This document shows positions 10,820-46,600 of a stretch of 64,000 bases of DNA, in pieces. The DNA lies in assembly GCA_036924285.1 (NCBI GenBank), contig JAYKYS010000024.1:1-64000 (forward strand). Reading direction: 5' to 3'. This stretch comes from Asterella californica. Taxonomy: Eukaryota > Streptophyta > Marchantiopsida > Marchantiales > Aytoniaceae. The notes under the pieces were generated by a model. The model was not told where the DNA came from, ran no database searches, and saw only the letters and a program-made list of their open reading frames with translations. A program made the position numbers and the translations under genes. Each line of letters starts with the position of its first letter. Position 1 is the stretch's first letter.

Positions 10820-10822
10820 TTT

Positions 10823-10840
10823 TGGTTCCGTTGCCGGGAC
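10823..10840 (+). other. Primer-binding site (tRNA-Asp-like)
   Basis: TGGTTCCGTTGCCGGGAC begins 3 nt after the 5' LTR. It is close to the TGGCGCCGTTGCCGGGGA primer site, complementary to the tRNA-Asp 3' end, used by many plant Tat/Athila gypsy elements (from memory). The mismatches fall within and after TGG. Confidence 0.7.
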
Positions 10841-11875: not shown

Positions 11876-12010
11876 GATGACCATGAGGGTCAAACTTACT
11901 CCAACCTTTGGAGAGGAGAGAGCTCAATGGGGAAATTGTGGATTGCGGTGAAGTGCGATCTTCACATCTACAAGCAGTACCTCGAGTAAGAAGAAGAAAA
12001 GAAGAGAAGA

Positions 12011-15000
12011 ATGGGGAAACTTCCGGTGTTTTATGAAAAGGATGGAGAAGACGTGGAAGGATTTGTGAGAGACTTCAAAAGAGCATGCATTGGCAATGGA
12101 GATCGAAAGAAGAGCGAGTGGGTAGGGTTGATACCTGAATTTCTTGAGAGTTCTGCATTGACATGGTATGAGGATAGGAAGAAGAGAAGAGTAGTGGGGA
12201 CTCCAGATGATACTTGGGAAGTATTGACGGAGGCCTTAATTGAAACTTTTCTTCCTGATGAAAGTTACGAGAAGTTAATGGTGGAGGTAACTTACCTCAA
12301 ACAAGGAGAGAAAGAGAAAGTAAGGACTTATGCCGAGAGGGTGGAGAAATTAGAACAGAAGTTTCGGGTGGTTTTACGAAAGAGTGGAGATGTAGTAGAA
12401 CCAACGATGGTGGGCATTGGAGCAATGCTCACAAAGAATTTTATTGGGGGATTGAGGCCGGAGATTCGAACACAAGTGCGGTATGAGAGACCAACTTCGA
12501 AGGCTGATGCAGTGAAGATCGCAACTAGGATGGAAGAGAGTCTGGATGGAGACGACTTGCAACCAATGACTGTTGGGGCAGCATGTGGAGATGTGCAAGG
12601 GCCGAGCATGCCAACTCTGAAACCTGCGAGTGTTCCGACTGTTCGATTTCAAAATCTGACTCCGATAGCTCCTACTAGTGCGGTTACAGTCACTGTACCA
12701 TCTAGATCTGTTACTCACGACTTTCGTGATGAGTTGAAAAGTTTGACAGATTCTCTGGCAGATTTGAAGATCAATATGGTGAATTTGTTGCAACACCGGA
12801 GTCCAAATGTTGGAGGGGGCTCACGAGGTTATGGAAACTATCAGTCCAGAGGTAGACCACCGCAAGGATCACCCAGTAACTACACGAGCCAAGGATGTTT
12901 TACGTGCGGAGGATCACACTTCCAACGTAATTGTCCGAGTCGTAATGGTGGAACGGCGGATGGAGCTTCAACTTCACAAAGTAAGGACAAGGGTGTAGCA
13001 TGCATTGACATCTTGGAGCCGCGAGATGTACGAGAAGGTTTTCAGTCTGTAGAGCTGTTAGCTCAAGAGAGGAAGAGGATGAGGACGCATTTCGAGGAGG
13101 GAGAACCGGTCGTGATGGAAGATTCTCCAAGTCAAAATACTCGGAGTAGCAAATCTTCTTCAAAAACCAAAGAGCGACGGAAGAAATTGGGAAATACTGA
13201 TTTCACAATTTCAATGGAGCAATCAAAATACAATGTGGTGGAAGACGTGGGAAAACAACGAGCAAACATTACTGTGGGACAGTTGATTGCTCTGAATCCT
13301 TCGGTGAGGAAAGAACTTCGTAGCGGTCTAAGCTCCCGACGAGGTCGGAAGAAGAAGGTAAATCCTTCTACTGTCGGTGTGAGTGCTTTAGACGCTAGTG
13401 AAGGAGAGGTATGCAACAAGGCATCAAAAGTAGAGGCTCGTATCAATGGGAGAGATGTCTCTGATGTTCTTGTCGATGGAGGATCGGCAGTAAATGCCAT
13501 CTCGGAACGACTCATGAGGAAGTTGGATCTAGTACCAACGCGTCCTTCTAGTATCACGGTTGGCATGGCTAACAGACAGCGAGTTAGGCCATTGGGAGTG
13601 CTGGAGAGAGTTTGCGTGTCAGTAATGGGAGTGCAAGTAAACATGACATTTCAAATCTTGAAGGATTCAAGTTATGAAATGTTACTCGGAAGACCTTGGC
13701 TTCGAGCAGTACATGCAACGGATAACTGGCACAAAGGTTATTTACGCATCGGACCGAATCACCACCGGATCAAAGTTCCATTGCTCGGAGATCAAGTTGG
13801 GACGTCGGAATCGGATCGACCCACATCGGACTACTGGGAGTCAGAAGTTGTCGATACTACTTCTGATGTAGGTACCAATTCTTCAGATTCAGAATCTGAA
13901 AATACATCGTCAGAGGAGGAGTCTCTACGACTCATGGAAGAATTCCATGACGGTCCAGTATGTGGAGGACATTTCGCAGGCAAGTTGACGGCTCATAAGA
14001 TACTCAATGCGGGATATCACTGGAGGGGGATGTTTAGAGATTGCTTGACGTATTGTAAAACCTGTGATGTTTGTCAAGCTTTCTCTATCAAATCTAGTGT
14101 TTCCACTCCTCTTAGATCTATTCCGGTTCTTGGACCTTTCGAGGAATGGGGAATAGATTTTGTTGGGCCTTTGAATCGCACCCCTCGCAACAATAAGTAT
14201 ATTGTTGTAGCCACAGATTATCTTACGAAGTGGGTAGAAGCTAGACCTCTTGTAACTATTGGAGAAGTTGAGGTGGGTAGATTTCTGTACGAACGGATCA
14301 TAACTAGGTTTGGATGTCCTTTGGAGTTAGTTTCTGATAGGGGTCGAGAATTTGTGAGTGGCATGACTACTGCTATGTGCACCCACTTCTCCATTTCTCA
14401 GAGGGTTACTACTTCATATAAACCTAGTTCAAACGGTTTGGTAGAGAGGACAAACTTTACCTTGTGTCAGATGTTAGCAAAGGATGCTGACATGGAAGGG
14501 GCCAAACACAACTGGGACAAGCGTCTTCATGCGGTTCTATGGGAGTATCGAACAACAGTGAAGACATCTACGGGATATTCACCTTTCAAGATGGTGTATG
14601 GGTTGGAATCCAGATTACCGATCCAGTTCGACCTAACCACCTTTCAGACCTTACAAGCTGGATTAAAGAGAAAGGGTGGTCAAATAGCTGAGAAAGAGAG
14701 GAGAGAAACTTTGTTGGAGCTGGAGGAGAATAGAGACGATGCAGCTCAACGAATTGAGATGGCCCAACTACAACAGAAGAAGAGCTACGACAAGCGCTTG
14801 GCGAAGAACAAAACGAAGTTACAGCCATTTCAAAAGGGTGAGTGGGTGATGCTATGGGATGCTATTAGGCACAAGCGAGTTCAAAAGAAGTTCTTACGTC
14901 GATATTTTGGGCCTTTCATCATCTCCAAAGTGTGGAGTAATAACACCTATGATCTTCAAGAGAGAAGTGGTACGTTCTTCGACCGAGTGAACCACGACAA

Positions 15001-15055
15001 GTTGAAGAAGTTTCATCAACGTGATACTTCACTCCGAGGACGGAGTGAAAATTAA
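12011..15055 (+). CDS. Gag-protease-integrase polyprotein without RT/RNase H
   Basis: One uninterrupted 1014-codon ORF. Residues about 40-200 match a plant retrotransposon gag (TWYEDRKK, then FLPDESYEKL). A zinc knuckle is at C296-C299-H303-C308 (CX2CX3HX4C). The aspartic protease has active site V-D489-G-G-S and a LLGRPWL motif near 558-563. Integrase begins with an HHCC-type zinc-binding segment (H654 ... CKTCDVC). It has the complete catalytic triad D716 (WGIDFVGP), D776 (VSDRGREF), E812 (GLVERTN), spaced 59 and 35 residues, then a GPF-type C-terminal motif (RRYFGPFIISKV). About 90 residues, acidic and serine-rich, lie between protease and integrase where some 500-600 residues of RT and RNase H would be expected. 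The junction is in frame. The protein could assemble particles and integrate DNA, but not copy RNA. Confidence 0.92.
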   Translation: MGKLPVFYEKDGEDVEGFVRDFKRACIGNGDRKKSEWVGLIPEFLESSALTWYEDRKKRRVVGTPDDTWEVLTEALIETFLPDESYEKLMVEVTYLKQGEKEKVRTYAERVEKLEQKFRVVLRKSGDVVEPTMVGIGAMLTKNFIGGLRPEIRTQVRYERPTSKADAVKIATRMEESLDGDDLQPMTVGAACGDVQGPSMPTLKPASVPTVRFQNLTPIAPTSAVTVTVPSRSVTHDFRDELKSLTDSLADLKINMVNLLQHRSPNVGGGSRGYGNYQSRGRPPQGSPSNYTSQGCFTCGGSHFQRNCPSRNGGTADGASTSQSKDKGVACIDILEPRDVREGFQSVELLAQERKRMRTHFEEGEPVVMEDSPSQNTRSSKSSSKTKERRKKLGNTDFTISMEQSKYNVVEDVGKQRANITVGQLIALNPSVRKELRSGLSSRRGRKKKVNPSTVGVSALDASEGEVCNKASKVEARINGRDVSDVLVDGGSAVNAISERLMRKLDLVPTRPSSITVGMANRQRVRPLGVLERVCVSVMGVQVNMTFQILKDSSYEMLLGRPWLRAVHATDNWHKGYLRIGPNHHRIKVPLLGDQVGTSESDRPTSDYWESEVVDTTSDVGTNSSDSESENTSSEEESLRLMEEFHDGPVCGGHFAGKLTAHKILNAGYHWRGMFRDCLTYCKTCDVCQAFSIKSSVSTPLRSIPVLGPFEEWGIDFVGPLNRTPRNNKYIVVATDYLTKWVEARPLVTIGEVEVGRFLYERIITRFGCPLELVSDRGREFVSGMTTAMCTHFSISQRVTTSYKPSSNGLVERTNFTLCQMLAKDADMEGAKHNWDKRLHAVLWEYRTTVKTSTGYSPFKMVYGLESRLPIQFDLTTFQTLQAGLKRKGGQIAEKERRETLLELEENRDDAAQRIEMAQLQQKKSYDKRLAKNKTKLQPFQKGEWVMLWDAIRHKRVQKKFLRRYFGPFIISKVWSNNTYDLQERSGTFFDRVNHDKLKKFHQRDTSLRGRSEN

Positions 15056-15068
15056 GTCTGGGGGTAAA
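15056..15068 (+). other. Polypurine tract region
   Basis: GTCTGGGGGTAAA lies immediately before the 3' LTR, a G-rich tract in the position used to prime plus-strand synthesis; plant gypsy elements often have AAGTCTGGGGG here. Confidence 0.65.
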
Positions 15069-15868
15069 TGTCACGTCACAAGTATCCCATTATTTGTGTG
15101 CATGTTTATATAAGTTTCATTAGGTATGACTATCTTATAGGTTACTCTAGTTCGAAGATCTAAATCTAGAGTGATCAAAACTAGCCATAACTAGCGGAGA
15201 TAGTTATAACTAAGTTGGAGAAACTATTAGAGGTTCCACTATGACACTATGTGACAAGTGCGGAGCTCTAAATATGCTTCTCAAAAGTATGTAACTTTGT
15301 TGACCATCGTTGATTGGATGCATGATGGAAAGTCATGCACAAAGATCTAAAGATGCTCCTCAAAAGACGTATTAGTTTGTTGTCGCCTTCCGATTGGATA
15401 GGGTGGAAAGTTAACACTTTACAAAAGCTAAAGTAGGAGAATCTCTTACTTTTGTAAAGTAGAACAAGTAATGTGTGTGCTATTCTTAAAGGCTTAGTAG
15501 CCTTTAGAAGTTTTACTATTTTGGATTGCGCACTTACCATGAGGTAACGTAACTTAGTGAAAGTTACCACGGTAAGAAGTTGTAGAGTATATAAGGAGGA
15601 GTTGAGAAGGTGGAAGACACTCTCATTTTCCTGACTGTAAGTAAAGTGAGCATTGGAGACCTTGGGAGTCCTTGAGTATTTTGCGATGTAATGTTGAGAG
15701 CGGGATTAGAACTTGTGTGCAGGAACGCTATTAGAGGTACCGATGTGACCATACGGGTCAGAGAGTTGAGTGAAGTGAGCATGGGTGTACTTAAATCTTT
15801 GTAATTAGGGTGCACTAGTAATCCTAGTCATCTGAGGTACCCCTGGGTGAGAGACAGGCCGGCTTACA
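15069..15868 (+). repeat. 3' LTR
   Basis: 800 bp, same ends and length as the 5' LTR, with one base difference found (C at 15529). Followed directly by the target duplication and the resumed repeat. Confidence 0.95.
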
Positions 15869-16084
15869 GAACAAAACCAAGAAGGATCATATTAACTTTC
15901 GAAAGCTTTGCTTTCTAGCTTCTGTAACTCTTCCAGGCTTGCATCTACATGTACGTATATAACACTCTAGCATCAAGAGAGAATCATCCACAAAGAATCT
16001 CATCAATTGACTCCTCTCAACTCCTAAAGTACAAGCTTAGGGAACTTTTCATCAAGTACTGCACTCCACTTGTCCCTCGTGAAT
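15869..16084 (+). repeat. Right half of the interrupted repeat
   Basis: Continuation of 9871-10019. Matches R 60380-60600 and, inverted, 23400-23640. Confidence 0.75.
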
Positions 16085-16985
16085 CGGCGTAATAATCGAG
16101 TGGTGGAGATTGACAGCGGAAAGTGGCTCGACTTTCCGGACTCTAACCACAGTGCGCATGGTCTACTCGTCCACACAGACTCACGGAATGCTCTTTGATC
16201 ATGCCCGAACAGCGAATATTGCTCGTGATACTTGCACCTGCTAACCCAAATAAAGTATACCCACAGGTCCTCCAATCCTAGGTTGAGATCTAGAGCAACA
16301 AAGTAGACTGAATAAAGAACACATTTCAAACCAACCCGGGTCTAATCACTTTATAAAAGACGAGCCTTTCTTGTTGGACTCAAAGTTCCGGCAACACCCA
16401 CAATCTCTTGCGTTAATGTCCTCTGGGAGCGAGAGATCTTTGGTTATATTTTCTTTCGCTTCGCCTTTATGTTAAGTCACTGGAAGACTCTTACATATAG
16501 GAGCTAATCGCATCCGATGCGCTGTTACCGGCTATCGTATAGTAGATCTCAAAGTAAACTATTGGACAGGTCTGACCAAGTCCACATGATACTAAAGCAC
16601 ATTTTAAGATCCATAGACGCGAACCTAGGAGTGAACACGAGCCTCGATATCGTTTCCTGTTTATCGAATGAGACAGTTGAATAGCTGCTGGTGAGGTCAT
16701 TCCTATTTACTTTATCGTGCCCGCGGAGAAATCGTAACGATAAGATAAAAGCTGTGGTCCACACGCTGTGACTTTGTGGCCCAAAGGAAGGTTCAAAGTT
16801 GCTCCCTGCATCACGTGGACTCTAATTCTATGATTTTCTGAGAATCTAGGCCACTAGCCATGCTACGCATGTCCCAGAGCGCTAGACAATGCATTGCTGC
16901 AGTATAAGCATGTTATAGTGCGATGTGAAGTGGGTACGAATATGTAGATTTTCTACCCAGTAGACTTCGAATGTTCAGAGTTTCA
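16085..16985 (+). repeat. Dispersed repeat module X, copy 2
   Basis: Longer relative of 9192-9870, matching R 60605-61490 nearly throughout. Frames of about 70-100 codons on the minus strand recur in R only because the DNA is duplicated. Confidence 0.65.
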
Positions 16986-17339
16986 AGCATGTTAATCATA
17001 CCCACTTAGTTCTTCGGTTCTGTTCTGTTCTTGTCTGTCTCTGGCTCGCTCCTGCCATATCTTCTATATCGATCTTAGAGTGCTCATCGCGTTGGCCCAA
17101 ACCTCCTTTCTTTTTTGACTAGAATCTTCTTTTAGGGTCGCACACAACGACTTCACAACCTCCGCAATGATCCTGGCTGTTGGACGATCAGAGTGCGTGT
17201 TCCAGAAGATTCTATCCGTCCTCTCCCCCCATGCAACTTGAGTGTGCTCTGTGAGTAAATGAAGAAGGGAGGGGTCTTTATCTCTAGTCGTCAATGCCTT
17301 GTCTATCGTCGTTAAGAGACTACTGCCTTCAGTGTAGTT

Positions 17340-17520
17340 CAGACCTCCCGTTAGTACATGGAGATTGAACCTTCCCTATCTTGTCTTTGTCGCCGGGTAG
17401 TCCCAGAAAACATGTTCTATCGTCTCCTCCGCCTCACAGCCTTTCGTGCATTTCCCTTCTCTTATTTTCATCTGTAGAGCCCTCTGATTCGTGAAGAAAC
17501 CCCAGTTTAGGAGCCTCCAC
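17340..17520 (-). pseudogene. LINE ORF2 C-terminal zinc-knuckle-like segment
   Basis: Minus-strand translation gives a fragment like K-C-x-x-G-x-E-A-E-E-T-I-E-H-V-F-W-D, the zf-RVT region of plant L1 ORF2. The R copy (61664-61984) is better: C-A-E-G-Y-E-A-E-E-T-I-E-H-V-F-W-D-C. Both are separated from the RT part by frame breaks. Confidence 0.6.
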
Positions 17521-17782
17521 ACCCACAGATTGGTCCTCATTGTGCCCCGACTGCCAAATCTTTCTCCATCAATTCCTCCACTCCTCCACCGGGCTAGAAA
17601 TACCTCACCTTGTGTTGTATCTCAACGTTTGGGGGCCTAGTCGGTAGGAGACCTTTCCAGGTTCGAAGGTCTTGCTTCCATCCATTCTTTTCTTGAGTTC
17701 CTATCTTCCAGCCCCAGCTTCATGCTCTCTTGTAGTCCCCCAGAAATCACCTGTATTCCCCCTACCCACCTCGTGCACTTTT

Positions 17783-18478
17783 CTATAGCAGTACCCCCAC
17801 CATCTCCAGGTTAGTATAGCTCCTGTTCAGCGAAGCCCCCCTCATCGAGTCCTGGAGATCCTTCAGCTTAAGTGCATTTAGAGAGTATAGCTTGTCCCTT
17901 TTGACTCCTCTTAGGGCCTCTCTCTTATCTTGTGCTTCTATTTGCTCGCTTTTCTGCCATAGCTCCACCACAACCGTAGCGGGCAGGTTTCCTGGTAGTT
18001 GGTCCCTCTTGCTGTCGAAGACCAGTCTCCCCGCTACCTCTTGCCAGCATTTGATCATGGTGTTCAGCGTCAGAAGGTTGCGGGTTCTTAGCCCGGGGAG
18101 CATTAGCAGACACTCCTCTAGTGTCCACTCCGCCACCGTCTTCTTGTACTTTCCTTTCTGTACGTTCTCTTTAATTATTCTCCATCTAGCGATGTTCACC
18201 CAGTCTTGGCTGCCTCCATTGAGGATCTTCGTCAGGTATTTTATTTTTTGAGCTTGGGCCACCATTCGGAAAGGGGTGATCCCCAGCCCCCCTTCGCATT
18301 TGGGCTTCGTTAGTGTGTCCCAGGCCACCATAGAGGTTTTGGCCTTCCTTTCAGGGTTCCTACCCCACAAGAAAGCACGGCAGACGTCCTCCATCCTCTT
18401 GAAGCCAGCCACCGAGCACTCCGTGCTCGTTAGTTGATAAGCCGGGATGGCTCGGAGAACATGCGTCAGCAGCACCAT
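17783..18478 (-). pseudogene. LINE ORF2, post-RT segment
   Basis: 231-codon open piece with HVLRAIPAYQL, CRAFLWGRNPERKAK, VAWDTLTKPKCEGGLGITPF, the highly conserved region that follows RT in plant L1 ORF2. It is in a different frame from the RT piece at 18488-18943; ten bases separate the two, so one small indel split a single gene. Confidence 0.75.
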
Positions 18479-18487
18479 GCGGCTCGG

Positions 18488-19159
18488 TCAGGACAGCAGC
18501 CTATTAGACCAATGCTGAAGCCGCTTTTGAAGTCTCACCACTAATGCCTCCTCCATCTGCATCTCCGTCAAGTTCTTCCCTATCCAGGTGCTCATGTATT
18601 TGACCATCTGGGCCGGTCTCGCTATCAGGCACCCGGAGCAGTCCAGCCAGCTAGGGACCTCATCCATCCCCATGAGGATTACCATAGTCTTCGTCAGGTT
18701 CAGAGAGGCCTTGGACACTTCCTCGTACCTACGGATCACATCTTGAGTGGTCTTAAAGTACTCTTCCGACTCCTCGATAACGAGCCCCGTATCGTCCGCG
18801 AACAGCTGATGTAGCAGAGAGGTCCCTTCTCTTGTTCTTAGACCCTCAATCACCCCTTGTTCCTTTGCCTTCTTCAGCATGTTCATCAAAGGCTGGGTCG
18901 CAATGACGAACAGGAAAGGGACAACCGAGCATCCTTGCCACACCTCCTTCCCAGCGCAAACCCCTTAGTGAACCCTCCATTCATATGCACTTTCAACCGG
19001 CCATCCTCTGACAGCCCTTTCAGTAGCTCCACGAAATGTCCATCAAACCTCATGCTCTCCACAGTCTCCCCTAGGTATGTTTGTGACACCCTATCGTAGG
19101 CCTTTGTGAAGTCAATTTTTAGGAACAGAGAGGGCCACTTCTTCGCTTCTGCCGCCTCC
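18488..19159 (-). pseudogene. LINE ORF2, RT palm/fingers segment
   Basis: Contains the catalytic box LFADDTGLVIEE (F-A-D-D) in the piece 18488-18943, preceded in another frame (18886-19159) by the D-F-T-K-A-Y-D-R-V region. An in-frame TAG near 19159 corresponds to a CAG (Gln) in the R copy, so a nonsense mutation ends the upstream piece. Confidence 0.75.
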
Positions 19160-20649
19160 TATCCTAACTTGAAGCTTAGAATGTTATCGTAGATGTCTCT
19201 ATCTTGAATAAAGCCCGTCTGTTGCTCATCCACGATGTTTCCTATTACCGTTTTCAGCCTCTCCGCCAATAGCTTGCTCAGAACCTTGTATGTAGCAGTG
19301 AGCAAGGATATCGATCTCCAATTCTCCAAGTCATGCTTAACTCCCCCTTTCAAAATTAGCTTGATGACTCCTTGCAGGGTCTTGTCGTCTATTTTGTTCG
19401 TCTTCCAGAACTCATGGACCATCGTCGAGCACTCCTCTCTTATAAAGGGCCAGCACACCTGTAACATTTTGTACGTAACCCCGTCCAAACCTAGGGATTT
19501 CTCCTGGGGGAAGCCCAGGACAACCCCCTCTATTTCTTCTATCGTGGGAGGGGCCGTTAGCCTAGCATTCTCTTCTGCCGTCACCCATTTGGAAGTAAGT
19601 TCCAGAATACCCTTCCTCTTAGTCTGGTTCATAGTTACCTCCTCATATTCCTTGTATAAGTCAGTGTAGTACTGATTAATCCTCTGCAAAATTTTGGCGT
19701 GGTCTTCCGATATTCTCCCATCCTCCATGGTCACCCCCTTCAGGGCCTCTCTCCCATGTTTAGCCTTGAGTTGTCCGAAAAAATAACGAGAGGGCGCTTC
19801 TCCTTCCTTCAACCACTTTATCCGGCTCCTCTTCTGCCACAACACCACGTCTTGGTGCTCCCTCCTCCTTAGTTTCTCCTCTGCTCCCCGCAACCTGACT
19901 TCCGAGCTGTCTTCCCTAGCCTGGATTCTCAATATTCCACCTCCATAGCAGCTCGAGGTGGTTCCCTCAGCCCCGCCGTCCTTTTCTCTTCCACCAAGAT
20001 TCTCCTGATTTGAGCCCACTCCACTATCCACTTCGTTCATAGGGTCCCTTCCCTTCCTTTGCTGTTCTCTCCAGGCAGTCTGCACTCTTGCTTTGATTCT
20101 CGGTTTCTTCATCATGGTAGCTTCCATTTTAAAGTACGTGGATTTTTTAATCCTCGGTCTTCCATCTTTCTCCTTTAGCTTAATGGTTACTGTCACCGAG
20201 ATGTGGTCTGAGAGCGTCTGCCTCCCATCATGCACGATTTTTGTAACTCTGGCACACCATTCCGCGTTGTCATTAAGGTAACACCGGTCCAGCCTTGCCT
20301 GATCGAGCCTTTCTCCCGTCTTAACTTGTCGAGTAAAAATCGGGCCCTCCCTGCTGAGAGCGCAGAAAAGCGCGTCCACCAGGTCAGAATGTAGAAGGTT
20401 ATTCCTCCAAAATCTAAGCTCGCTGCCATGTACAAGAGGAGATGAGCCGAGGCTGTCGTCAAGTAACTTGACCATATTCCACTCCCCCAGCACCCATCTC
20501 CCCTCTGTCCTTGTGCCTAGCCATTCCCACAAACCCCTCCTCCCTTCTCTCCTATTCGGGGTATATATAGAGACGACTTCGATTGACCCTATATCCAAGT
20601 CGAAAATCCCCCAAGCCGCCGAGCCTTTTCCGTGGACCCCTTGACCCAT
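19159..20649 (-). pseudogene. LINE ORF2, endonuclease plus N-terminal RT
   Basis: 496-codon open piece. The N-terminal part is the C-terminal half of an APE-like endonuclease: LGEWNM replaces the usual GDFN, then RLDQARLDRCYLN and SDHISVTV (the catalytic SDH). The C-terminal part is RT: GLDGVTYKMLQ, NWRSISLLTATYKVLSKLLAERL, QTGFIQDRDIYDNIL. It is cut off by the stop at 19159. The endonuclease N-terminus lies upstream (about 20650-20950) in broken frames. Confidence 0.8.
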
Positions 20650-26263: not shown

Positions 26264-28483
26264 GCATGTATGATATTAGCCATGAAAGCGTATTGTACTC
26301 GTGCTTGGATACTCTACTGACTAGTTGTGCTGCACATTCTCATAGTCACTTTTTCCGTCGACTGTGGCGGTGTTGTGTCGTGGATCGGCTCCTATTTCGC
26401 TTCAAAGACACTCATGAGAAGACAAGCTAGGCCTCTGCTTATGAGCTTTTGGCACCATTTCGGATCTTCGCTTTCATCGCATCAATGGATAGAGCTCCTT
26501 GTCAGCTTTCCATGGACATCTTGTTTACTTTGTTTGGACATCTAGTGATGAAGTTATGCGACTCGAAAGAAGATAAAATCAAGCTAGGCCTTAGTTACTT
26601 GCTGACTGGGTATTTGAGGCTTCAGGTGTTATATCAAAGACGCAAGGAGCCTGCTTCATATTTTTATTGAGAGAAGTTCGTACGTACAGAGACTGTTACA
26701 AGGGGGCAGCTTAAGGGCTAGCTTGCACCTGCGACTTGTTAACGGACGGTTCGAGAGATTTAGGAGTCCAATGCAAGCGCGCAAGACGTCGTTGGGTTTA
26801 CATCTGTGTAGGATATGCACTGGTTCAGATGGTTTGTGAAGAGACAGATCGGGGGTTGTGTTCTGAGAGAAATTGAGACGCTTGAAGCAGATTTGGGATT
26901 TTCAGTTACTTGTGAAGGAGAGTTGGACCGTTCGGGCCGTTTCGGAGTCCAAAATTGCTGTCCTTGGATCCATCGAGATCAGAACACCGGGTTCTACATG
27001 AAATTGAAGACGATACAAGTTTTCATCGGGCGGTTTGGAAGTTCTGAGTGAAATTGACTCGCAAGGAAGCGCTTACATCAGATTTTTGTTCGCCTACGAC
27101 CTGAGGTTGGTTTGTTCTTCGCGATCGGTGAGCCAAGCTCTTCGTTCTTGGTGCCTACGCGATCAAGGAGTCTTCATCTACGCATAGGAGAAGACAATAC
27201 GTGGATTGGATTGTTGATTTGGGTGAGGTGAGCGAGTTTGAGCCGCATGGAGTCCATTTACGTCAATTTTTTTGCAACTTGCGACCAAATTTCTTGCGTG
27301 GTTTTGCAAGGGGAACTCCAAACGACTTGTTTGGAGTCTCGTTGGGTTTTTGTGATAGCTAGATCTATCTGCCAAGGAAGGCGGATTTTCAGTTTAGACG
27401 ATCTGTTTGTTTGGTCACCTGCGCCTGAAAATCGATGATATCTCGGCTGTTGGGAGTCGGATCTGAAGGTTTCTTGGGTTAACGGAGTCAGCGGAGGAGA
27501 CCCTATCGACATCTGAAGTCCGTTCGACGAAAGGAGGAAGTTCACAGATAGGCCTTTGTCGGTTTCTTCGCTACAGGTTTTGCTCTTTTGAGTTCATTAG
27601 AGTTCTAGTTGGCTATATACAGCTTGCGGTAGCTAGCTTTAGCTAAGAACTTGTACATGGATGTGGTTTGGACTTGGGTTTGGATCGCGTGATACTGCTG
27701 TGGCTTTGTTTGTTAGCAAAGAGAAGTTTCTCTTGCTTTGAGCTACACTTCGGTGGTTTTGGGTCAGGTTTGTGGTTCATGGGTTGTTTTTAAGGTCTTT
27801 GAAGCAGGTTACAGACCGCTCTGGTCTGTTTTTCAGTTCTGTGCTCTTAGGAGAAAGAACCAACAGTGTACATACATTTGGAGTGGTATATATCGCAGCA
27901 TTCGTTTTCGTGGTTGTTTTTCTCTGTCTTGTCTTTGTTTCAGCACGCAGCATCTCCACAGCCAGGAACCTCGCGTTTTCCTGGACATCCTTCACACAAT
28001 ATCTGACACGAGAGCGGTGTATTTACTTACGATTTTTCCTCTGATTGGACTCTGCAGTCTAGAACCATAACAGTTATTTGTAATTCAGGCTTTACTGGAG
28101 AGGATAAATTCATTTCATACTTTTTATGATTGCATGTCCACAACATTCCACTCTGAAAAGTATTTTTTGACTGTCCCCCAAATGAACATTCATGTGGAGT
28201 AAGTGCTGGAGGAAATTCCAAATGATCTGGTTTGAATGTGGGTCCTTTGGGTTATATTTGCTTCACTCATTTAATATATATTATAGTTTTATTGTTTCTT
28301 TATTTAATATTCACTAATGCAGGTCCCAACACCACCTTTGGAATAGTTGCTTGAAATAGTTCTTCCAATTATGAAGAGTACAGTACCGTCCCACATCTTT
28401 TATTAGCAGATCGGCCCGAACTGTGTACTTTCAAGCTCGTGTACGCATTATACCTTAGTATACACCCAGACAACATAACGAGG
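26264..28483 (+). other. Unidentified GC/GT-rich segment, no gene recognised
   Basis: About 26.7-28.06 kb is richer in G and T on the plus strand than its surroundings and breaks into 60-110-codon frames on both strands. None has a domain. The composition looks like a transcribed leader, LTR or non-coding RNA, but I found no terminal repeats or clear splice pattern. 28.06-28.48 kb is AT-rich. Confidence 0.3.
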
Positions 28484-28489
28484 TTACTT

Positions 28490-28545
28490 TCTTTACTCTC
28501 GATTATTCTTGGGAGATGAATATCATCCCCCACGGCCTTGTACAG
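28490..28545 (+). repeat. Left copy of direct repeat DR1
   Basis: CTTTACTCTCGATTATTC... through CCTTGTACA; matches 32283-32340 with a 34-bp identical core, then a short divergent stretch and a second shared block. Confidence 0.8.
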
Positions 28546-28565
28546 CCAGCGAGTGGGGCTGTACA
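28539..28565. repeat. 9-bp hairpin at the left side of the Rep element
   Basis: TGTACAGCC (28539-28547) and GGCTGTACA (28557-28565), perfect stem with a 9-nt loop, overlapping the end of DR1. Possible Rep recognition structure (inference). Confidence 0.6.
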
Positions 28566-28599
28566 TGCTTCTGGAGAAGGGCGCCGTTTAAAGACTGGC

Positions 28600-28720
28600 C
28601 GCCGTTCATTTAGGAATAATGGACGATCAAGTAGACCATCAAGAAGAGACGACTGTAACGGTAGCTTGGTGCTATATTTAATTCTTCTTTCACGACCGGT
28701 TTGCTTCTGCGGACGCATTA
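28600..28720 (+). repeat. Left copy of diverged direct repeat DR2
   Basis: Alignable by eye with 32129-32250 (GCCGTTCA, GTAGACCATC, GAGACG, CTGTAAC/CTGTTAC, CGGTTT). Confidence 0.5.
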
Positions 28721-29558
28721 CTTCTGCCTTATACGCATTACTTGGCCGAATTAGTTCGCAGCTTGAGTTAAAACGGCGGGGTCGGTCCAACGATATTTAT
28801 TAAAGGTCCGAACGATGGGGCCTTCGCTTGCCACGTTGGATGGGACTGCCCGCCCAGCGGCGTTCAAACGTGCCTTCCTCTAACCGGACGCCCTAACCTT
28901 GTAAACCTTACAGTTGTCGCCTTGCCAACGGGAACGTTCTCTTCCACTTCTCGTGATGCAAATGTGCCTGCCCGCGACCTTTTTGCTCTTCGACCTCCTT
29001 GTCTCCTTCGAATGGTGCCTCATTCGTTTTGCTGCTCGAGACCACCTTCCCGAGACCACAACTTCCGATAGCGATACTAGGCGATGATGCTTCCATGCAT
29101 TTTTTTTGTTTCCACCGTCCGTGTCGTTCTTGCAGACCGGGCTGCTGCTCACAGCGGATTCTTGCTGAGAGACAAGACGTCAGAGACTGCAACCGTGCGA
29201 GGACCTCGCTCGGTTGCTTGTTTCCATATCGGTGATCTGTGCCAAGCTCTGCAAGCCCGTGAACATCTCGCTCGCTCGGTCTTTTCTGTACCATTGTCAA
29301 CCACATTCGGCCTTACAGTCTTTCCGTTGCTTACAGTCATCGCTGCAGTCCTCATGGGTACACCTGCTGTCATACGGCGACATGCTGCTGATTGTGCAAG
29401 GCACATACGATGCCGATGTTCTATCGCCATCTGCCGACACACCTCAACGTCTGTTCGGACGACTGTATGCATTTGGGCCCACCGCGCCTTCAAATTGAGA
29501 ACCATGCAGAAGATAAGTTCTCATCGCTGTTTTTCTTACTTTCTGTATCCTTTGCGGT
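28721..29558 (+). other. 5' part of the Rep element; possible upstream exon
   Basis: GC-richer than the flanks. A plus-strand frame at 29214-29498 ends in the same frame as the 253-aa ORF starting at 29559, so an upstream coding exon joined by a small intron is possible, but I see no strong donor/acceptor pair. The opposite-strand frames are probably shadows. Confidence 0.35.
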
Positions 29559-30320
29559 ATGTCGGACCTGGTGCTTGATGCCTGCGACCCCTCCAGTGTT
29601 GTTGATGTCCAAGCCGATGATGATCTTGCCGATGGGGAGTTGTTCTGTATTCCTTCCACTCCTCCTGCGCTAGTTGCTTCCGCTGTTCAGCTTCTGTCTA
29701 CTCCTTTAGCTGTTCCATGCGATGCTCGAGAGGAAGTCAGCTTTGATAATTTCGAGGCCGTCTGTTCTCACTCCTCTCCTCCATGTGTTGTGGATCGTTT
29801 TCGAAGACCTCTCAGTTTACCCCCATATCCTGTTTATTGCAGAACTATTTTGTCCTTCTCGGATGTAGAGCTGTACAAGTATAGGTCCTATGTTTATCTT
29901 GATTTTCATTACGCTTCTGTCCCACCCGAATTTCTCCTTCCTGGACTGGATTATGTTCTCATTTGTAAATCTTTCTCGATCCCTCAAACTTGTCTTCAAG
30001 CGGTTGTAGGACCTTTCCATTATATCGAAACTGAAGGAGCTTGGATTGTGTTGCGGGATTGTAAGTCCAAGTTGTTTTCCTATCCTAAATTCCTTCAGTT
30101 TGCCAGCGATTCTGCCCTTCTGAAACCTACAGTTGTTGCTGTCTATCGTTTAGACTGTATCCATTGCATCTGTCAGGACGTAGATCCTCAGGTTTTTAGG
30201 TTTGCTTGTAAACACTTCCCTTTTCGACATGATGCTCAGACGAGCAGCAAGAGCGCGTCGTCAGACGCTACCACCTCTAATGACGGGAACACGTCGGGTT
30301 CCCATCCCCAAACGACTTGA
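29559..30320 (+). CDS. ORF1 of the Rep element, function unknown
   Basis: 253 codons. The N-terminal third is acidic (DVQADDDLADGE). The middle is rich in aromatic and hydrophobic residues (SFSDVELYKYRSYVYLDFHY; GPFHYIETEGAWIVLRDC). There is a Cys/His-containing segment (LDCIHCICQDVDP), and the C-terminal 30 residues are Ser/Thr-rich, linker-like. I do not recognise a domain. Its last 119 bp overlap the start of the Rep ORF in another frame. The two could be translated separately, by reinitiation, or as a fusion through frameshift or splicing; the linker-like tail fits either. The start chosen is the first ATG; an upstream exon is possible. Partnership with Rep is inferred from position only. 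Confidence 0.55.
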   Translation: MSDLVLDACDPSSVVDVQADDDLADGELFCIPSTPPALVASAVQLLSTPLAVPCDAREEVSFDNFEAVCSHSSPPCVVDRFRRPLSLPPYPVYCRTILSFSDVELYKYRSYVYLDFHYASVPPEFLLPGLDYVLICKSFSIPQTCLQAVVGPFHYIETEGAWIVLRDCKSKLFSYPKFLQFASDSALLKPTVVAVYRLDCIHCICQDVDPQVFRFACKHFPFRHDAQTSSKSASSDATTSNDGNTSGSHPQTT

Positions 30321-31355
30321 GCTCTCTGTTACTGTCAATTGTACCGGAGCGGACCTTGATGTGGATAAGTGTTGGCCCCTTCTCTGTCGCTTCCTTCAGG
30401 AAGAATGCAACAGCGGTTTGCTTTCCATCGAAAGAGGAGGAACTCTTTTGCATCTGCATGTGCAAGGTGTTATTTGTCTTGAGGCTAGCAGTGCTTTACA
30501 GGTGAAGCAACGTTTGGTCGCAGTTCTTGGCTGGAGAGGAATAGATAGACCTGTAGGAGGAGAAGTTTGTGTCAAAGGTTTGACTAACAGGGGCCTACAT
30601 ACCTTTGTAGGTATGGTGGGCTACTGCATGAAGGACAAGGCTGAGGCTCACCATCAATCGTGTATGAAAAATATTACTGATTGCATGCTTCAGGATGGAG
30701 AAGAGCTCTTTACCCTTTTCGGTGCTGCAGATACGAAAAACCGTGTGGAATTGAACCACAACAATATCTTGCAGCGCGCCCTCCAGTTTAACAAATACAG
30801 GAGCAGGCATCCGCTAGGTACAACTTTGAGAACCTGTCTGAGATCTATGATTAGATCCGGTAAGTATACCCCTTCCTGTAGGTGGCTCATGGCATGTGGA
30901 ATCCAGAAAACAAGGAGTGACTCTCTGTGGAAGGCTATTGTTCGTCCAGAAAGTATTACAATAGCAGACATCGACAACGTTTTTTTTGCACAAACGCGCG
31001 CTCGTTACTTTACAGTAGAACAACCTGACGCCGATCTTGTGAACGAGGAGGAGGAGTATATTCTGGCGGCGTCTCCTTGTCTGCAAAGAAGCAGGACAGT
31101 GCCCAGCTTTGAGGATGTGCACGCCTTGCCTGAATACATGCCCGTGTGTAGTGCATTGGAGCGTAACCTTGGGGCAAACAGAGCCTTTGAAGGTAATTTC
31201 TGTATTCTATATTGCGTCAATGTTATCATCGTTGCTTCTGTTTTGCCTAAATGCCAGTGCTGTTTTCTGTCGCAGGCACCTTTTCTGTCGCAGGGATCTC
31301 GTCCCAGCATCCGAGACAGCAGGCTAGCGGAGGCAACGAACAGACTAGCCACTGA
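30202..31355 (+). CDS. Rep-like HUH endonuclease (single tyrosine)
   Basis: Predicted 356 aa after removing an intron at 31193-31275 (AAG|GTAATTTC ... CTGTCGCAG|GC); a second acceptor at 31293 keeps frame. Without splicing the frame runs 420 codons to 31464. Rep motifs are in order: motif I LELSVTVN (39-46); motif II H84-L-H86-V-Q-G (the HUH metal site); motif III Y141-C-M-K144-D (catalytic tyrosine, YxxK). These are the signatures of rolling-circle initiators, which nick one DNA strand and stay bound through the tyrosine. The C-terminal 200 residues show no helicase P-loop, unlike CRESS-virus Reps and Helitrons. The start may be the ATG at 30202 or one of two about 30 bp later. I infer a transposase of the Replitron type; an endogenised CRESS-virus Rep is a less likely alternative because of the missing helicase and the intron. 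Confidence 0.72.
31193..31275 (+). other. Predicted intron in the Rep gene
   Basis: 83 bp, GT-AG, with a pyrimidine-rich 3' end (GCTGTTTTCTGTCGCAG). A near-duplicate acceptor (TTTTCTGTCGCAG) lies 18 bp on, allowing an in-frame alternative that removes six residues. After splicing, the C-terminus ends in a Q/S/G-rich tail. Confidence 0.55.
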
Positions 31356-31389
31356 CCGCTGTTTGTCTGAAGGCGGCTGCTATCAGACT

Positions 31390-31685
31390 GCTGTTCTCTT
31401 CAAAGTTCGTGACAATTGCCATTGGAGACCGGAGCCTAGCAGAGAAAGGCAACAACGCTACTAGTTTACTCTTCTGTCTCGCTGTGCCTTATAGATACAC
31501 ACTGATAGTCTTCAAACCGGTTTCGTTATTTACTGTATGGAAGTTGTCTTCAAACTGCGTGACGATTGGCATAGGAGACCGGAGGGTAGCACAGAAAGGC
31601 AACAACGGTACTAGTTGTTGCCTTGCTCTTAAGACTCTCTCGCTGTGCCGTGTACATAGAGACTGATGGCGTTCATACCGCAGTG
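31390..31685 (+). repeat. Two tandem units of about 145 bp after the Rep gene
   Basis: Unit 1 (about 31396-31540) and unit 2 (about 31541-31685) share TTCAAA-GTGACNATTG, GGAGACCGGAG, AGAAAGGCAACAACG and CTCGCTGTGCC. They could act as iteron-like binding sites or be relics of tandem duplication. Confidence 0.65.
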
Positions 31686-31794
31686 GTTTTCTGTTACTGT
31701 TCCAAACTGTGCAGAGTTTGGAACTGAGCAAAGTACAAATGTACAAAGTATACAATTAGCCGTAATATTATCTGCTTTGTCTGAAATACAGCTG

Positions 31795-31985
31795 GGACTG
31801 AGCTTCTTTTCGACAGAATGAACATGCTGTCGATGTTTCCACTGTAGACTTCAACTGTTGTAATAAACATCACAGTTTTTTCAACTTGCACTACTTGTAC
31901 TTACCAAGACACAGTGCAGAATGAACTGAGCTACTTATCGACAGAATGAACCTCCTGTCGCTGTTTATAGTTATAAACATGTACG
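31795..31985 (+). repeat. Paired repeat with matching hairpins
   Basis: Two related units (about 31795-31875 and 31922-31985) share ACTGAGCT-CTT-TCGACAGAATGAAC and ATAAACAT. Each has a hairpin: TCGACAG/CTGTCGA at 31810-31816 and 31827-31833, and CGACAG/CTGTCG at 31939-31944 and 31955-31960, both with 10-nt loops starting AATGAAC. Duplicated hairpins beside a Rep gene are what a nicking-origin or terminal structure would look like (inference). Confidence 0.65.
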
Positions 31986-32128
31986 TGGGATATAGTGGAT
32001 TATTACCACTGGATTATTATTGTCCGAGGCCGGAAGGAAACCTCACGTCGATAAAACGGCGCTTGTAATAACCGTGAAAACAAACTGTTGAAAAGCCAGT
32101 GGAGAAAGATGCACTGCCTCCGAAAGAG

Positions 32129-32340
32129 AGCCGTTCACATCCGAAACGTAATATTCTTGTTTTTTGAAATGAGAATAGGCCTGGTAGACCATCCGAGGAG
32201 ACGTCTGTTACATTATTTTGCTGAAATATAACAACGGTTTCTGGAGGCCTCGCATCGAACATGTACATCGGTGAATATGCAGGGGCTTTACTCTCGATTA
32301 TTCTTGGGAGATGAATATCTTACCTCACGCCTTGTACATC
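32129..32340 (+). repeat. Right copies of DR2 and DR1
   Basis: DR2-like sequence at 32129-32250 is followed by DR1 at 32283-32340. Partner copies are at 28600-28720 and 28490-28545. Confidence 0.65.
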
Positions 32341-32497
32341 TGACTGGTGAGCATTTCCGTTAGCGGAAAAGAACGTAAGTATCATGTTGGAATTTTGTAC
32401 TATATTGTCATGAAAATTTGAATCTCTCTAATTATTATAAATGATAACATTGCTAGAAACTGAGAGCAGAGCCTGACATAACCCATAAGCGATCCGT

Positions 32498-32542
32498 CTG
32501 TTATACTTTCTGCATACTCGCGTACTGCAGAAAGTATAACAG
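32498..32542. repeat. Perfect 17-bp inverted repeat
   Basis: CTGTTATACTTTCTGCA (32498-32514) and TGCAGAAAGTATAACAG (32526-32542) around an 11-nt loop, about 150 bp beyond the right DR1. Could be a terminal hairpin of the Rep element or an unrelated foldback. Confidence 0.8.
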
Positions 32543-32763
32543 AGCTTGCTATCAAGAATATTCATCTACATCTATCAGGAATATTTCATCTTCATCTAAT
32601 TTCTTCTCTAACAATTCTTGCCAAGAAAAGATCAGAGAATAAATTAATGGAAAGCCCTCGAGCACTCTAAGTGCACATGGATGAGTAGTGAACAGCACAA
32701 GGTCGTCTAACAGAAGGTCGGAGGGTCTATGATGACCAAAAATCTCAGAAAGTAGTATTAGAA

Positions 32764-32785
32764 TTTATTTATTTATTTATTTATT
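32764..32785. repeat. (TTTA)n microsatellite
   Basis: About five TTTA units. Confidence 0.8.
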
Positions 32786-32872
32786 CATCCGCACTCAGAT
32801 GGCGGAGTGAGTGAACTGAGTTCCCTCTCTATTATACAAGAAGAAGGACCCATGGATATAAGATCTGACGAC

Positions 32873-33072
32873 AAGATAGAATGATAGATGATAAACTCGA
32901 GGATATGAATCAGCTTCTCGGGCGCACATAGAACCCTGAAGACATGGGTAAGCTTAAAATTCCAACCTTGACTATAAGATAGAATGAGTTAAGATGAACT
33001 CGATGATATGAATCAACTTCTCGAACGCACATAGAATTCTGAAGACATGGGTAAGCTTAAAAGTCCAACCCT
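32873..33072. repeat. Tandem duplication of about 103 bp
   Basis: Units start AAGATAGAATGA at 32873 and 32976 and share GATATGAATCA-CTTCTCG, CGCACATAGAA and GAAGACATGGGTAAGCTTAAAA. Confidence 0.75.
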
Positions 33073-40603: not shown

Positions 40604-43600
40604 CTATTTTTCTAACAAAAGATTCTTTGTTCCACTCTTCACACACTCTTCACACAACCAAGCAAATGGATCATTACTATAATTTCTATATCTTACTAAA
40701 TGCAGTTTGAACAAGCGGGCATAGTCCGCACGAGTTAGATTCTTGTCTAAATGATCTCTGAGACAAAACCAAGCTTCTTCAGTAGATCTGTCAGCTTTCA
40801 GCAATGATGGATCTTTATCCAATTCAACCTTCAGACAATCAAGAACAACATCTGTAGATGCAGATACTACAACGCAACTTCCTGTCGCAAGGTTGGAGAT
40901 ATCAGGAACCACACTACCTAAATTTGCTGTGACTTGCGCTCCGATCTTCAGAAGTACCCATATCATGTAAAGCGAAATCATAGATAGTTTCCTCATGGCT
41001 TTTGAAAACTCATCTTCTTTCTCGGAGCGCACTTCTAAACCTTCTTGGTTCTCAACAAAATGTGGTGATCGATGCCTTACCTCACACATCAAGTGGAGAC
41101 GCACTGCTTTCCCAAAGAACATCTTCGCTTTCACTTTCTGCATCAAAGTCACATCGTCCTCGGTAAAATATGGCCGACTAGGAGTTCTATGCCCATCTTT
41201 TGAACTCATATAGCCAATGATGTCGTCCACTGTTGAAGTCACATGCGACATTTGTCTCCCCATCTCATTCAAGATTGACTTGAATTTCTTCAAATCATCT
41301 CTTACTTGCTGAAAACCTGCATCTATTCTTTGTTCTAAACGTTGAAACTTCGTCGTCAACCTTTCTTCAGAGTGATGTATTTCATCACGTAAATACTTGG
41401 ATTCTGCAGACAATGGAATATCATGTCTCGTCTCCAAAGACGATGTGGACATCAATAATCTTGAAGATTCTAACTTGCTCTCTCTTTGTACAGAAGACTC
41501 TTCTGATGAGAGATGATATTGTGCTCTTACAGCTGGACAATGAATTGCAAGCTCACACTTGACAGACCCATCGTTCAATCGGTTTGAAAACTGACGTAAT
41601 TCAATAAGATTTTCCTGTAAATCCCTATGGTCTTTAAGAACTTGGACACATGTAAGAACATCATTGACATCCTTCGATGTCAAGAGAGTTGTTGCTAGTT
41701 GAAACTCTTCATCCAAGTTGAACTGAGCATCAGCAGATTCTATTTTGGGCCAAGTATGTTGATAGTTAAGGAAAGACTCCTCTGCATTTGTTGAAGTTCC
41801 TCCAAGTTGACTCTCAACATCCATCTGGAATCGTTTCTTCAGGTCTTCTATCAGCACAGCTTGATTCTTGGTTCTCAGTTTGCAAGGTGTTAATTGTCTC
41901 ACACACTCTGGTCGAAGAATCGAGACAACAAGTTGCACGCCTGGACAACCTCTTTCAGAAGCACAAAACTGAATGAGATCTTTCACCACACTCTCTTGCA
42001 CAAAGTGCATCGCAGAATCTCTAATCTTTTCTTTAGAGAACTTTACCATGATGTCGATATGACTTTGTGCATATTGGTCCATCTCCACAATGATGATGCA
42101 ACCGTTGCTCGAAATCTTCATGCGATAGCATGCAAATGTGAAGCTATCATCAGCCACTCCCTGATTCTTCATCTGTTTCCGAAGGTGTATCTGGATATTC
42201 AAGATACAAAGCACAAACAAGAAAGATTATCAATAAAATATTTATCTTTGATCTATTTTGAAACTGAAACTGGATTTTAAAAATATGAAATACAAATCAA
42301 GACATTATCAATATAATTTCACAGAATGTTGTGAGAGACATTAGAAAGCTAAGATGCAAGAAGTTTAATACCTTATCATGGTCAACATGGAAAGTTTTTT
42401 GTATATTTTAAAAAGCAATATGAAGTTATGGTTGAAATCAAAACTTACTTGATATCTGGGGTAAAATGCTGCATTCAGTGAAGTCCTATCTTGGTCACGA
42501 CATTGTACTCGAAAGCCAAAATAGACTGCAGCATTTTCTTCTCTCCATTTCGTTATGTCGATCATCTTCGAACTCTCCTTTGAAGCAACATCCACCTTGG
42601 CAGGGTTCAAGATGATCGGCATGAAGTATTTGATCACACTGCCTTGTTCAAGCTTGTGACAAAGATCCAATTCGATCAAGAGCTCTTTCACCATCTTGTG
42701 ATCCACACTGATATGTGGATTCTTTTGTTGCACATTATTTATCAGTGCAAACAAGTCTTGAGAACTGATAAAACCTGATCCATCTATATCTGCACACTTT
42801 AGTGATTGTCGTACCCAATCTTGACCTGTGATGATGAGTTCTCCCAACAGGTTTTGTGATAACCAATTAAGTTGAACCACTATCAGTTTTTCAAGACCCT
42901 TTTCTCTAGTAGCTTCCTCATGTGGCAGAATTACGCTTGGCATCATGCATATTGCACCTATGTCGTGCATGTATGAAGCAACTGCATGTAACACACTTCT
43001 CCCTGCATTATCTGTACATTTGAACTGGTTGAGATCTATATGGTTCGAAGAGCAAAAGCTGTAGAACTGTTCGGTCAACCAGAGCGGTGAAGATTTGACT
43101 TCTTTTGGTAATTTCATCACCTTAGAAGCTAAGTCAGCACAAGCTTTTGGAACTCTAGGGCTCTTCTCTCTCAATAGGTTCTTCATACAATGAAGAACAA
43201 CATCAGTGATGGGTTGCACCTCCTTCTCAACCGTGCCATCAATGTGATATAAGAGATCACCCTTGTCTATAGTAACATCTATTTTGGGACAGAGTTCCAA
43301 AACATCTTGGAATCTTGCCTGCAAAGTTTTGACAGTATCCTCGAATATGATTGTATCCAGCTTCTCTTGACTCTTGTCACAATCTTTGTGAGTAATGACA
43401 ACTAGTACTTGTGGAAGAATGCGTCCAGTAAGAATGTTGGATGCAATAAAACGAAGCCAAGACATCAATTCGTCATGGAAGGATTCGTCTACCTTATGCT
43501 TCAACGTTCCTTTCTTTCCATGGCCTTGAAATGGATTGAATGCGAAGATGAAGATGCACGCTTGACTCATCCTCGGGAACAAGATATTTTGAAGAGCTCG

Positions 43601-46600
43601 AAAGACTTCTTGGCCGGCCAAGTCCCAAATTGAAATGGTATCAAATTCTTCTTCACATAACAACTCCACTTCAATCCCCTTGGTCCTCCTCAGACGAGAT
43701 ATGAGTTCACGACCTTTTTTTCGAATGATAGACTCTGAGTTACTCTTCTTGGACATGGTGCTCATCATTGTCCTTTTCAAAGTTGTCTTTCCTGCAACAA
43801 GAATAGGAAATTAATAATCGAAATCATGAATAACTACAAAGTAATTTAATTATAAAGGTTTTCATACTTTAAATACATTAAACTAGATCGCAGTTTCTTT
43901 CTAAGCTTCATAAATTAAAGAGAATATTTGATCTTCCACTAGAACTTTTAATTGTAAGTTATCAATCTAAATGATGCATGAACTCAAAAATTCTTATAGT
44001 ACAAAAAAGAATGTGTTTCATATTTTCACCAGATAAACAAGCTTGGCAGGCTTACTTATTCCAGTCCAATTTTACAATATGTTTCATTACTCTATTAGCA
44101 CAATATAGGTATCAATCTTATGAAAATAATTTAGTTTGGAACTGAAAATAAAAATTTTGCTAAATCAAATTACATTACATTGAGTGTATATTGTACAACA
44201 CTGTAATGTGTTTTTGCTATTTTCAGGAGAACGACTAATACATATAGACACAAGCTTAAACCTTACCTATACAGTGATCATCTACTTTCATTCTAGATAT
44301 CTCACAGTGTCTACAAACTGGTGAAAAGCTTGATGGCAAAACCTTAACACTCAAACTCACCCCAAAGGCAAATATGCTTATGGTGTAAAAGTGAACAAAC
44401 ACCCACCGGCAAATTTCAACAACATTGGGAAATTAAAAGGAGTTTATATTACAGCGGGAGACTACTAGGCTCATGGACGGTCCTATAAACGATTACCTCT
44501 CGAGGTACCCTCGTCCAAAGGAGAGTACCTCGAAAGGACGCAAACTCAGAAAGAGCGAGGGCTTCAAAAAGAAAAATATGATTGTAAAAATTGTAAAAGT
44601 TATACTAGATTAGAACTCTATAACAAAACTCCAACTAAAATATTATATTTTGTTGGAGTCAAACTCATGATGACAAATAGTATACTATAGTCCTCTTTCC
44701 TCTCTTTTACAGCAGACACCACATAATCATTTATTGCTTCTCCTTGTTACTAGTGCAGAAGTGAGAATGCATGATGAAACAAACAGATATACAAAAAAGA
44801 GTTAAAAAAACAGATCCAAGACTTTAAGAACTAGAAAGTGAGCAACATCAAAAAGCCTTCAATTGTATGAAACTAACTATTCCTCTAACTCATGCATTCA
44901 ATCTGGTTCGATCTATTCCGTTATGCTATTTTTACTCTTTTAATGTTTTTGAATTTTTTTATCTTCTAACTCTCTTGAGTATATCCTAAGAAAAGTGAAT
45001 AGCAAGTTGAATGACATTACAACCCTGAACTCTCACAAGTTGAGAGTGATGAAGATTACCTGCAAATGGCTCTCCGCACAAGAACACCCGACCTGCCTTC
45101 GCTCCGTCGAATGTCAATTTTGCGCCTGCAAGGACCGAAAAGTAGCCCGCCTGCTTCTTGTTTCTTCTCAGTGCTTCCTCGATGAGGGCACTCTTTCCAT
45201 CTATCTTCCACTCTGTATCCCTTACATCTATCTTCTCTAGAATGAAGTTCACTTGAAGTAGATCCATCATATCTCGGAAGTTCTCATCATTCAGACCATT
45301 CGCACTTTCAAGGTCTAAATTTCTAATGGATGTGTTTCTACGCAGATGAGAAAAAAGGTTCCCCCATCCGTCCTTGGAAATGTTGTAACTGCTGGAAGTA
45401 CAACACCGAATCATCTTCAAACTTTCCAGTGAGGAGTTAGAAGTCAACTTGTCTACAATAGATGTAAAGTCCGGATAGCCTACATCAACTTCGTAGATGC
45501 TTACTTCTTTTAACCAGGTAGTTTCTAGGAATAAAGATATCTTACAACCGTCCCTATACTTGAATAAAGTATGATAAGTAAGAAGGGATAAATGTAACAA
45601 AGAGCTTCTTTGACTAGCGTTCCACATTTCTGTATAACCATTTCTCATCTCCTCCAACATCTGTTCTGAATAACTATCGATGTAGAAATGAATTTTGAAT
45701 TGACGTAATGTGGGTGGATGGAGAAGACTTCTTCCTATGCTTTTCCATTCATCTAAGCTAAAGCGAGTGAAAGTCCTAGGGCTTTTCAATTCATCATAGG
45801 AAAGATCAATGAAAATAGAGGTGATGTTGCCACCTATAAGACTAACCAATGCTTGTGATGTTATTCCTTCCCGATTTTCCCGGAGCTCTAGACGTTCTAG
45901 AAGGGGATGTGAGCATGTTGCACTGTATACCTCCACAAGAACATCCGTCAGTTCCTCATACACGGAAAGGTACTTCAAACGAGCAGAACCTTTTAATGCA
46001 CGTGACAGAGCTTCTTTAGCATCTCCGTTTAGTCGAAGTACCTTATCGAGGTAAAGCTTTTCAAGGTAGGGTGCACAAGATATGATTTCCGCCACAGACA
46101 ACATAACGCTTCCTTCAAGCTCTCCATAGAAGCTCACAACCTTCAACTCATGATGCTGCTTTGATCGGAGAGCGGAGGCGACTTCCGTGACCAACTTTGC
46201 TCTTAATTTCATTGCAAGTGTATCTCCAAGAGATAACTTTTGTAGGTTAAGAGATCCGCTGATAAGTTTTTGGAACAGAGGGCCAATCAATGCTTCTTCC
46301 TCTGCAGACTTGAACGGCGTTATCCAAATCTCTTCCAACTGAGCGGTATTTTGGAAGTGTATCAGAAGAACTTCCCACTCCTTCACCGACAAATGCCATC
46401 TTCTCACTTCGTCACTACGGAAGCTCTTCAGAGAGTTGCACATACCCAGTGCTTCGAACACCATTAGTCGCACCTCCGTGCGCCTACGACATTGTCGCCC
46501 TTGCGGTATAAAGAAATCACCATAGTCTTTGTCCCCTAACGCTGGCAAAAACCGAACCGGTTTTTCATCGGAACCCAAACTCCCTGCCAGACAATGCAAC

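Follow-up and report, generated by a model that had tools for sequence, protein, structure and literature searches.

A young Replitron with a conserved overlapping second gene and a long target-site duplication in Asterella californica

The stretch of DNA analysed here (the window) comprises 64,000 nucleotides of Asterella californica (assembly GCA_036924285.1, contig JAYKYS010000024.1, positions 1 to 64,000), and all positions refer to its forward strand unless another source is given. At positions 28520-32277 it carries a Replitron of 3,758 bp, a length inside the Replitron range of 0.9-4 kb, with two overlapping genes, namely open reading frame 1 (ORF1, positions 29559-30320) and the gene for a Rep protein (exon 1 at positions 30229-31192). 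An earlier note made from the sequence alone had proposed a Replitron-like or new Rep transposon between 28484 and 32350. The element is real, its termini fall within those bounds, and the Replitron assignment is upheld because Pfam matches, predicted fold, genome copies and element ends all agree.

The first Rep exon encodes matches to the domains Replitron_HUH (E 7.4e-14, 52.6 bits, cut-off 28.5) and Replitron_C (E 1.4e-5, 25.8 bits, just under the cut-off of 27); the Replitron families in Pfam are PF21859 and PF21860. The motifs LELSVT (motif I), HLHVQG (at 30451) and GYCMKD (tyrosine codon at 30622) all lie within this single open frame in the order described earlier. Rep is predicted to be a single-tyrosine HUH-type endonuclease that cuts and joins single DNA strands. 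It is uncertain whether HLH represents the catalytic pair: among 12 database rows with residues at this site, 11 retain H-x-Q and four retain the first histidine. The latter is replaced by N or K in four Riccia sorocarpa proteins and by Q in a fifth, P0012. The predicted fold came closest to circovirus Rep; Foldseek alone returned nothing at E ≤0.001, and a PDB sequence search gave a single chance match (E 1.1). In the four ORFs scanned against Pfam we found no helicase domain, in line with the missing P-loop of the earlier note, no capsid gene and no domain other than the two Replitron ones.

A protein search with Rep identified three relatives, including two proteins of the liverwort Riccia sorocarpa (identity up to 51% over 64% of the query). 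A profile search identified 16, of which Riccia accounts for seven and the fern Adiantum for one, with eight others. A scan of prokaryotes gave one 39% hit (L057, JAIXOF010000056.1), which sits on a contig of 5 kb in a Cyanobium bin and is probably foreign DNA of algal or plant origin. A scan of viral contigs gave 66 pattern matches and no relative. The Rep gene has a predicted intron of 83 nt (31193-31275, donor GTAATT after AAG), of which 65- or 101-nt versions are also possible, followed by a predicted exon 2 (31276-31355) that would complete a Rep of 347 amino acids. The intron is supported indirectly, in that similarity to most of the other copies ends just past the GTAAT donor at 31193.

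ORF1 encodes 253 amino acids and lies upstream of Rep in the +1 frame, with an overlap of 89 nt that extends from the Rep ATG to the ORF1 stop. This companion frame, which the earlier note had listed as a distinctive trait, is real and conserved: ORF1 and its frame relation to Rep are present in 24 of 24 fetched loci, a non-random sample consisting of the best Rep matches and three loci found via the 5′ end. The overlap measures 89 or 98 nt in 16 of them; in the remaining eight the stop comes earlier, the start differs or a start is missing. Median pairwise ratios of non-synonymous to synonymous divergence (dN/dS) were 0.19 for ORF1 (54 of 55 pairs, 11 copies) and 0.073 for Rep (76 of 91 pairs, 14 copies), calculated with our own Nei-Gojobori script after leaving out pairs of saturated or very low dS; these values are rough because dS is high (medians 0.91 and 1.44, respectively). 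At least 150 ORF1 matches occur in the A. californica genome. The residues C200, H202, C203, C205 and H219 are invariant across 11 rows, which suggests a metal site. No ORF1 relatives were found by protein search or in the PDB, Pfam gave a lone weak match (E 0.22, one of 11 members), and a single-sequence structure model was meaningless (predicted local distance difference test score 37). A weak ORF1-like stretch precedes the Rep domain of Riccia P0012 (pair E 0.002; 21 of 2000 shuffles; profile E 0.0078 among 16) and is regarded as a lead only; P0002 showed no likeness, its score being reached by 1318 of 2000 shuffles. For Rep we prefer a start at its own internal ATG, since all 12 of the 12 copies aligned retain this codon where the ORF1 residues change. 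Several conserved GT/AG pairs would splice the ORF1 frame to Rep and none stands out, so that joining by splice is possible and less favoured than the internal start. ORF1 is maintained by selection, overlaps Rep and is likely to be a partner protein in binding or joining.

As the earlier note had suggested, searching the genome itself (516.7 Mb in 773 contigs) for copies defined the ends of the element. There are at least 108 Rep matches, and those on C1 and C419 belong to near-identical full copies (99.5% and 99.4% identical to the window element over 3.76 kb, and 99.7% to each other); the window element is young. For these sister copies, the match to the window has its start at 28514 and 28520 and extends as far as 32282. 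In pairs of other subfamilies (L012/L014, L017/L021 and L016/L020) 3′ similarity breaks off at GTGAATA, and the 3′ end was therefore set at 32277. In the window's subfamily the element may also include the bases that come next, which are TGCAG in the window and AGCAG in the two sister copies. The 5′ terminus reads ATATCATCCCCCACGGCCTTGTACAG (28520-28545) and the 3′ terminus TGTACATCGGTGAATA (32262-32277). Twenty of 21 located 5′ ends were aligned, with ATA, CCC and most of TGTACA invariant (the full TGTACA in 19); since most ends were chosen by motif search, the terminal motif is independent evidence only at the pair breakpoints. At its termini the element has short direct repeats of about 9 bp (GATGAATAT and GGTGAATAT, the left copy being partly target sequence), which fit the Replitron trait of 5-11 bp; the C1 copy has GGTGAATA at each end.

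The duplicated hairpins of the earlier note held up in part. There is one strong 9-bp hairpin near the 5′ end (28539-28565, within a segment, 28480-28620, that folds at z -3.4), and there are direct repeats towards the 3′ end (31393-31519 and 31543-31680 in the 3′ untranslated part, 77% identical; 31797-31838 and 31925-31966, 88%), but RNAalifold found no stem shared by the 20 aligned 5′ ends. Elsewhere in the genome, locus L011 (C11:15181500-15191400) contains two inverted copies of one Replitron with equal Rep score, and at the 3′ end of L019 GGTGAATA runs into AGCAGCC, a continuation shared with the C1 copy, which belongs to another subfamily; beyond it lies the terminus again in inverted orientation. 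A possible non-autonomous Replitron of 302 bp lies at positions 3239-3540 of the window, bounded by a 5′-like motif at 3239 that has three substitutions and by a perfect match to the 3′ motif, TGTACATGAGGTGAATA, whose last base is 3540.

The related repeats that had been seen to bracket the element are 28491-28544 and 32286-32338, 92.6% identical over 54 columns. Three paralogues of the flanks (L034-L036) span from left to right flank without any element and contain the shared stretch once, and the window thus bears a target-site duplication of 29 bp, with identical copies at 28491-28519 and 32286-32314. Between the 3′ end and the right copy are 8 nt (32278-32285), of which TGCAG is perhaps the element's. 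The right copy is followed by host sequence, ATATCTTACCTCACGCCTTGTACAT (32315-32339), that resembles the 5′ end of the element and also occurs in the element-free paralogues. As the target already contained ATATCTTACCTCACGCCTTGTACA, likewise similar to the 5′ end, before insertion, the 54-bp repeat is composed of the 29-bp duplication plus this likeness. A 5′-like stretch follows the repeat in the right flank of L017, too. For C419, a candidate empty site was rejected, since the flank repeat ends 64 nt before the insertion is reached. The window flank (28014-28519 and 32286-33000) is itself repetitive, with matches mainly on C145, C135 and C207.

The near flanks of 18 copies with both ends located were compared, using 306 cross-pairings of different copies (maximum score 11) as a control. 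Six copies scored above every control (window 32, L021 31, L018 30, L016 25, L026 14, L028 12), L017 equalled the maximum with 11, and the repeat of L056 (score 9) adjoins the 5′ end, yet is within chance. The other 10 copies, including both young sisters, had no flank repeat beyond chance. The duplications proper are shorter than the scores, because scores of flush repeats include one to three bases of the opening ATA; they amount to 29 bp in the window, 30 bp in L021, 29 bp in L018 and 22 bp in L016, all flush with the 5′ end. Accordingly, 4 of 18 copies have target duplications of 22-30 bp, which is beyond the 2-8 bp reported for Replitrons. Extra nucleotides at the 3′ end number 8 in the window, 14 in L021, 11 in L018, 15 each in L016 and L028, and 16 in L017. 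The triplet after the repeat, through which the short repeats were partly found, is ATA in the window, L016, L017, L028 and L056, and only its A is present in L018 and L021.

When wider flanks were compared (control maximum 21), the first four copies still stood out (window 36, L021 31, L018 30, L016 25). Here a palindromic stretch placed the 38-bp repeat of L026 at a distance of 33 nt from the 5′ end (score 35), and L023 showed a 35-bp imperfect repeat 71 nt back from the 5′ end (score 23), the 3′ end of L023 being doubtful because its ends give 4,722 bp. L017 (16), L025 (14) and L028 (12) remained at or below the control maximum. L025 has its own first 14 nt directly past the 3′ end, an arrangement as would be left by a head-to-tail joint, and one cross-pair reached the same score. 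The idea that the extra bases had been copied from the element's 5′ end was rejected, as only L025 (14) and, weakly, L016 (9) showed such copies against a control maximum of 14.

These data bear on the strongest rival explanation, an ordinary Replitron with short duplications, in which the 29-bp repeat and the few others would be repair accidents or insertions beside older copies. It draws on the 10 of 18 copies without a repeat beyond chance, on the 5′-like sequence in the target of the window and in the right flank of L017, and on the 2-8 bp given in the consulted part of the review PMC10741241, a reported range and not a definition. However, the flush repeats of 22-30 bp occur in four copies of different subfamilies and exceed all 306 controls, and L016, L018 and L021 have no 5′-like target; we consider this explanation rather unlikely, though a serious contender. 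The 92.6% alike 54-bp direct repeats around the Rep element could also be read as long terminal direct repeats, two origins that release a circle between them, but the sister copies on C1 and C419, which have no such repeats, refute this reading, and the three element-free paralogues contain the shared stretch; hardly any credence is left to it. Equally improbable is an integrated CRESS-type virus (an endogenous Rep), for which the circovirus-like predicted fold would speak, given that neither helicase nor capsid was matched in the four ORFs scanned, that the ends are common to many copies and subfamilies, and that the viral contigs held no relative. A Helitron or Helitron derivative, suggested by its being a eukaryotic HUH transposon, is the least credible of all, since Pfam names Replitron, the four ORFs scanned gave no helicase match joined to Rep, and the 29-bp duplication, attested by the three paralogues, contrasts with the absence of duplications in Helitrons according to the consulted part of PMC10741241.

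The best overall explanation, which we regard as probable, is a young Replitron whose Rep would nick DNA and join the 5′ end exactly, the 3′ end being likely closed by host repair. Rep would bind the TGTACA-bearing ends and nick at (GRTGA)^ATA-like sites, with the 5′ cut placed just before ATA and the 3′ cut at GGTGAATA. The strand would be handed over, as in rolling-circle transfer, to a target that has been nicked at a similar site, and the 5′ end of the element would be attached exactly where the target was cut. Joints that are flush at the 5′ end agree with a nick before ATA and transfer to a target nicked in this way. A second break some tens of nucleotides upstream, followed by end joining, would produce the duplication and the extra bases, the 3′ end likely being closed by host repair; the variable 3′ joint, with its extra bases and differing duplication lengths, is the expected outcome when a staggered break is repaired. 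ORF1 would act as the partner protein. More tentatively, and short of an even chance, the window copy may represent a two-gene Replitron lineage, in which an apparently metal-binding ORF1 in an overlapping frame works with Rep, the 5′ joint is exact, and a wide staggered break with error-prone repair yields duplications of about 22-38 bp and added bases, sometimes at the ends of older Replitrons.

The long target duplication and the conserved second gene suggest a mode of insertion that is probably peculiar to this lineage. Should the long duplications and the additional bases be confirmed, Rep alone would not account for the 3′ joint and repair would make it, in departure from the simple rolling-circle picture. 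ORF1 would represent a component new to HUH transposons. Given three copies that are 99.4-99.7% identical, no fewer than 108 Rep matches and element-free flank paralogues, the insertion chemistry becomes readable from sequence, and the genome supplies a Replitron candidate for bench tests.

Other features of the window include a long terminal repeat (LTR) retrotransposon (10017-15868, 803-bp repeats 99.75% identical), whose ORF at 12011-15055 has gag, protease and integrase matches and no reverse transcriptase match. Two 3.6-kb stretches (15866-19480 and 60377-64000) are 93% identical, with LINE-like (long interspersed nuclear element) reverse transcriptase ORFs near both. An ORF at 42365-43780 has weak Roc/Ras and EF-hand matches, all under the Pfam cut-offs.

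Replitrons as described by Craig (2023, via the consulted part of review PMC10741241) have direct terminal repeats of 5-11 bp, a length of 0.9-4 kb and target duplications of 2-8 bp. The window element shares with them the lone Rep/HUH, its 3.76 kb, the direct terminal repeats of about 9 bp and relatives in seedless plants, and differs by its 29-bp duplication with extra bases and by the conserved overlapping ORF1, of which that part of the review makes no mention. Judged against this review only, the insertion footprint and ORF1 may be new. The Riccia sorocarpa Replitron proteins (P0001 and others), compared at the protein level, carry the same motifs at the identities given above and differ at the first HLH histidine. 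Circovirus and nanovirus Reps share the predicted nuclease fold and the single tyrosine with the window Rep, as well as the H-x-Q motif known from circovirus Rep. The viral Reps carry a helicase domain, whereas none was matched in the four window ORFs scanned. Helitrons are likewise eukaryotic transposons with an HUH domain, but they encode a Rep-helicase. They insert between A and T without target duplication (PMC10741241, part consulted), in contrast to the lone Rep and the 29-bp duplication of the window element.
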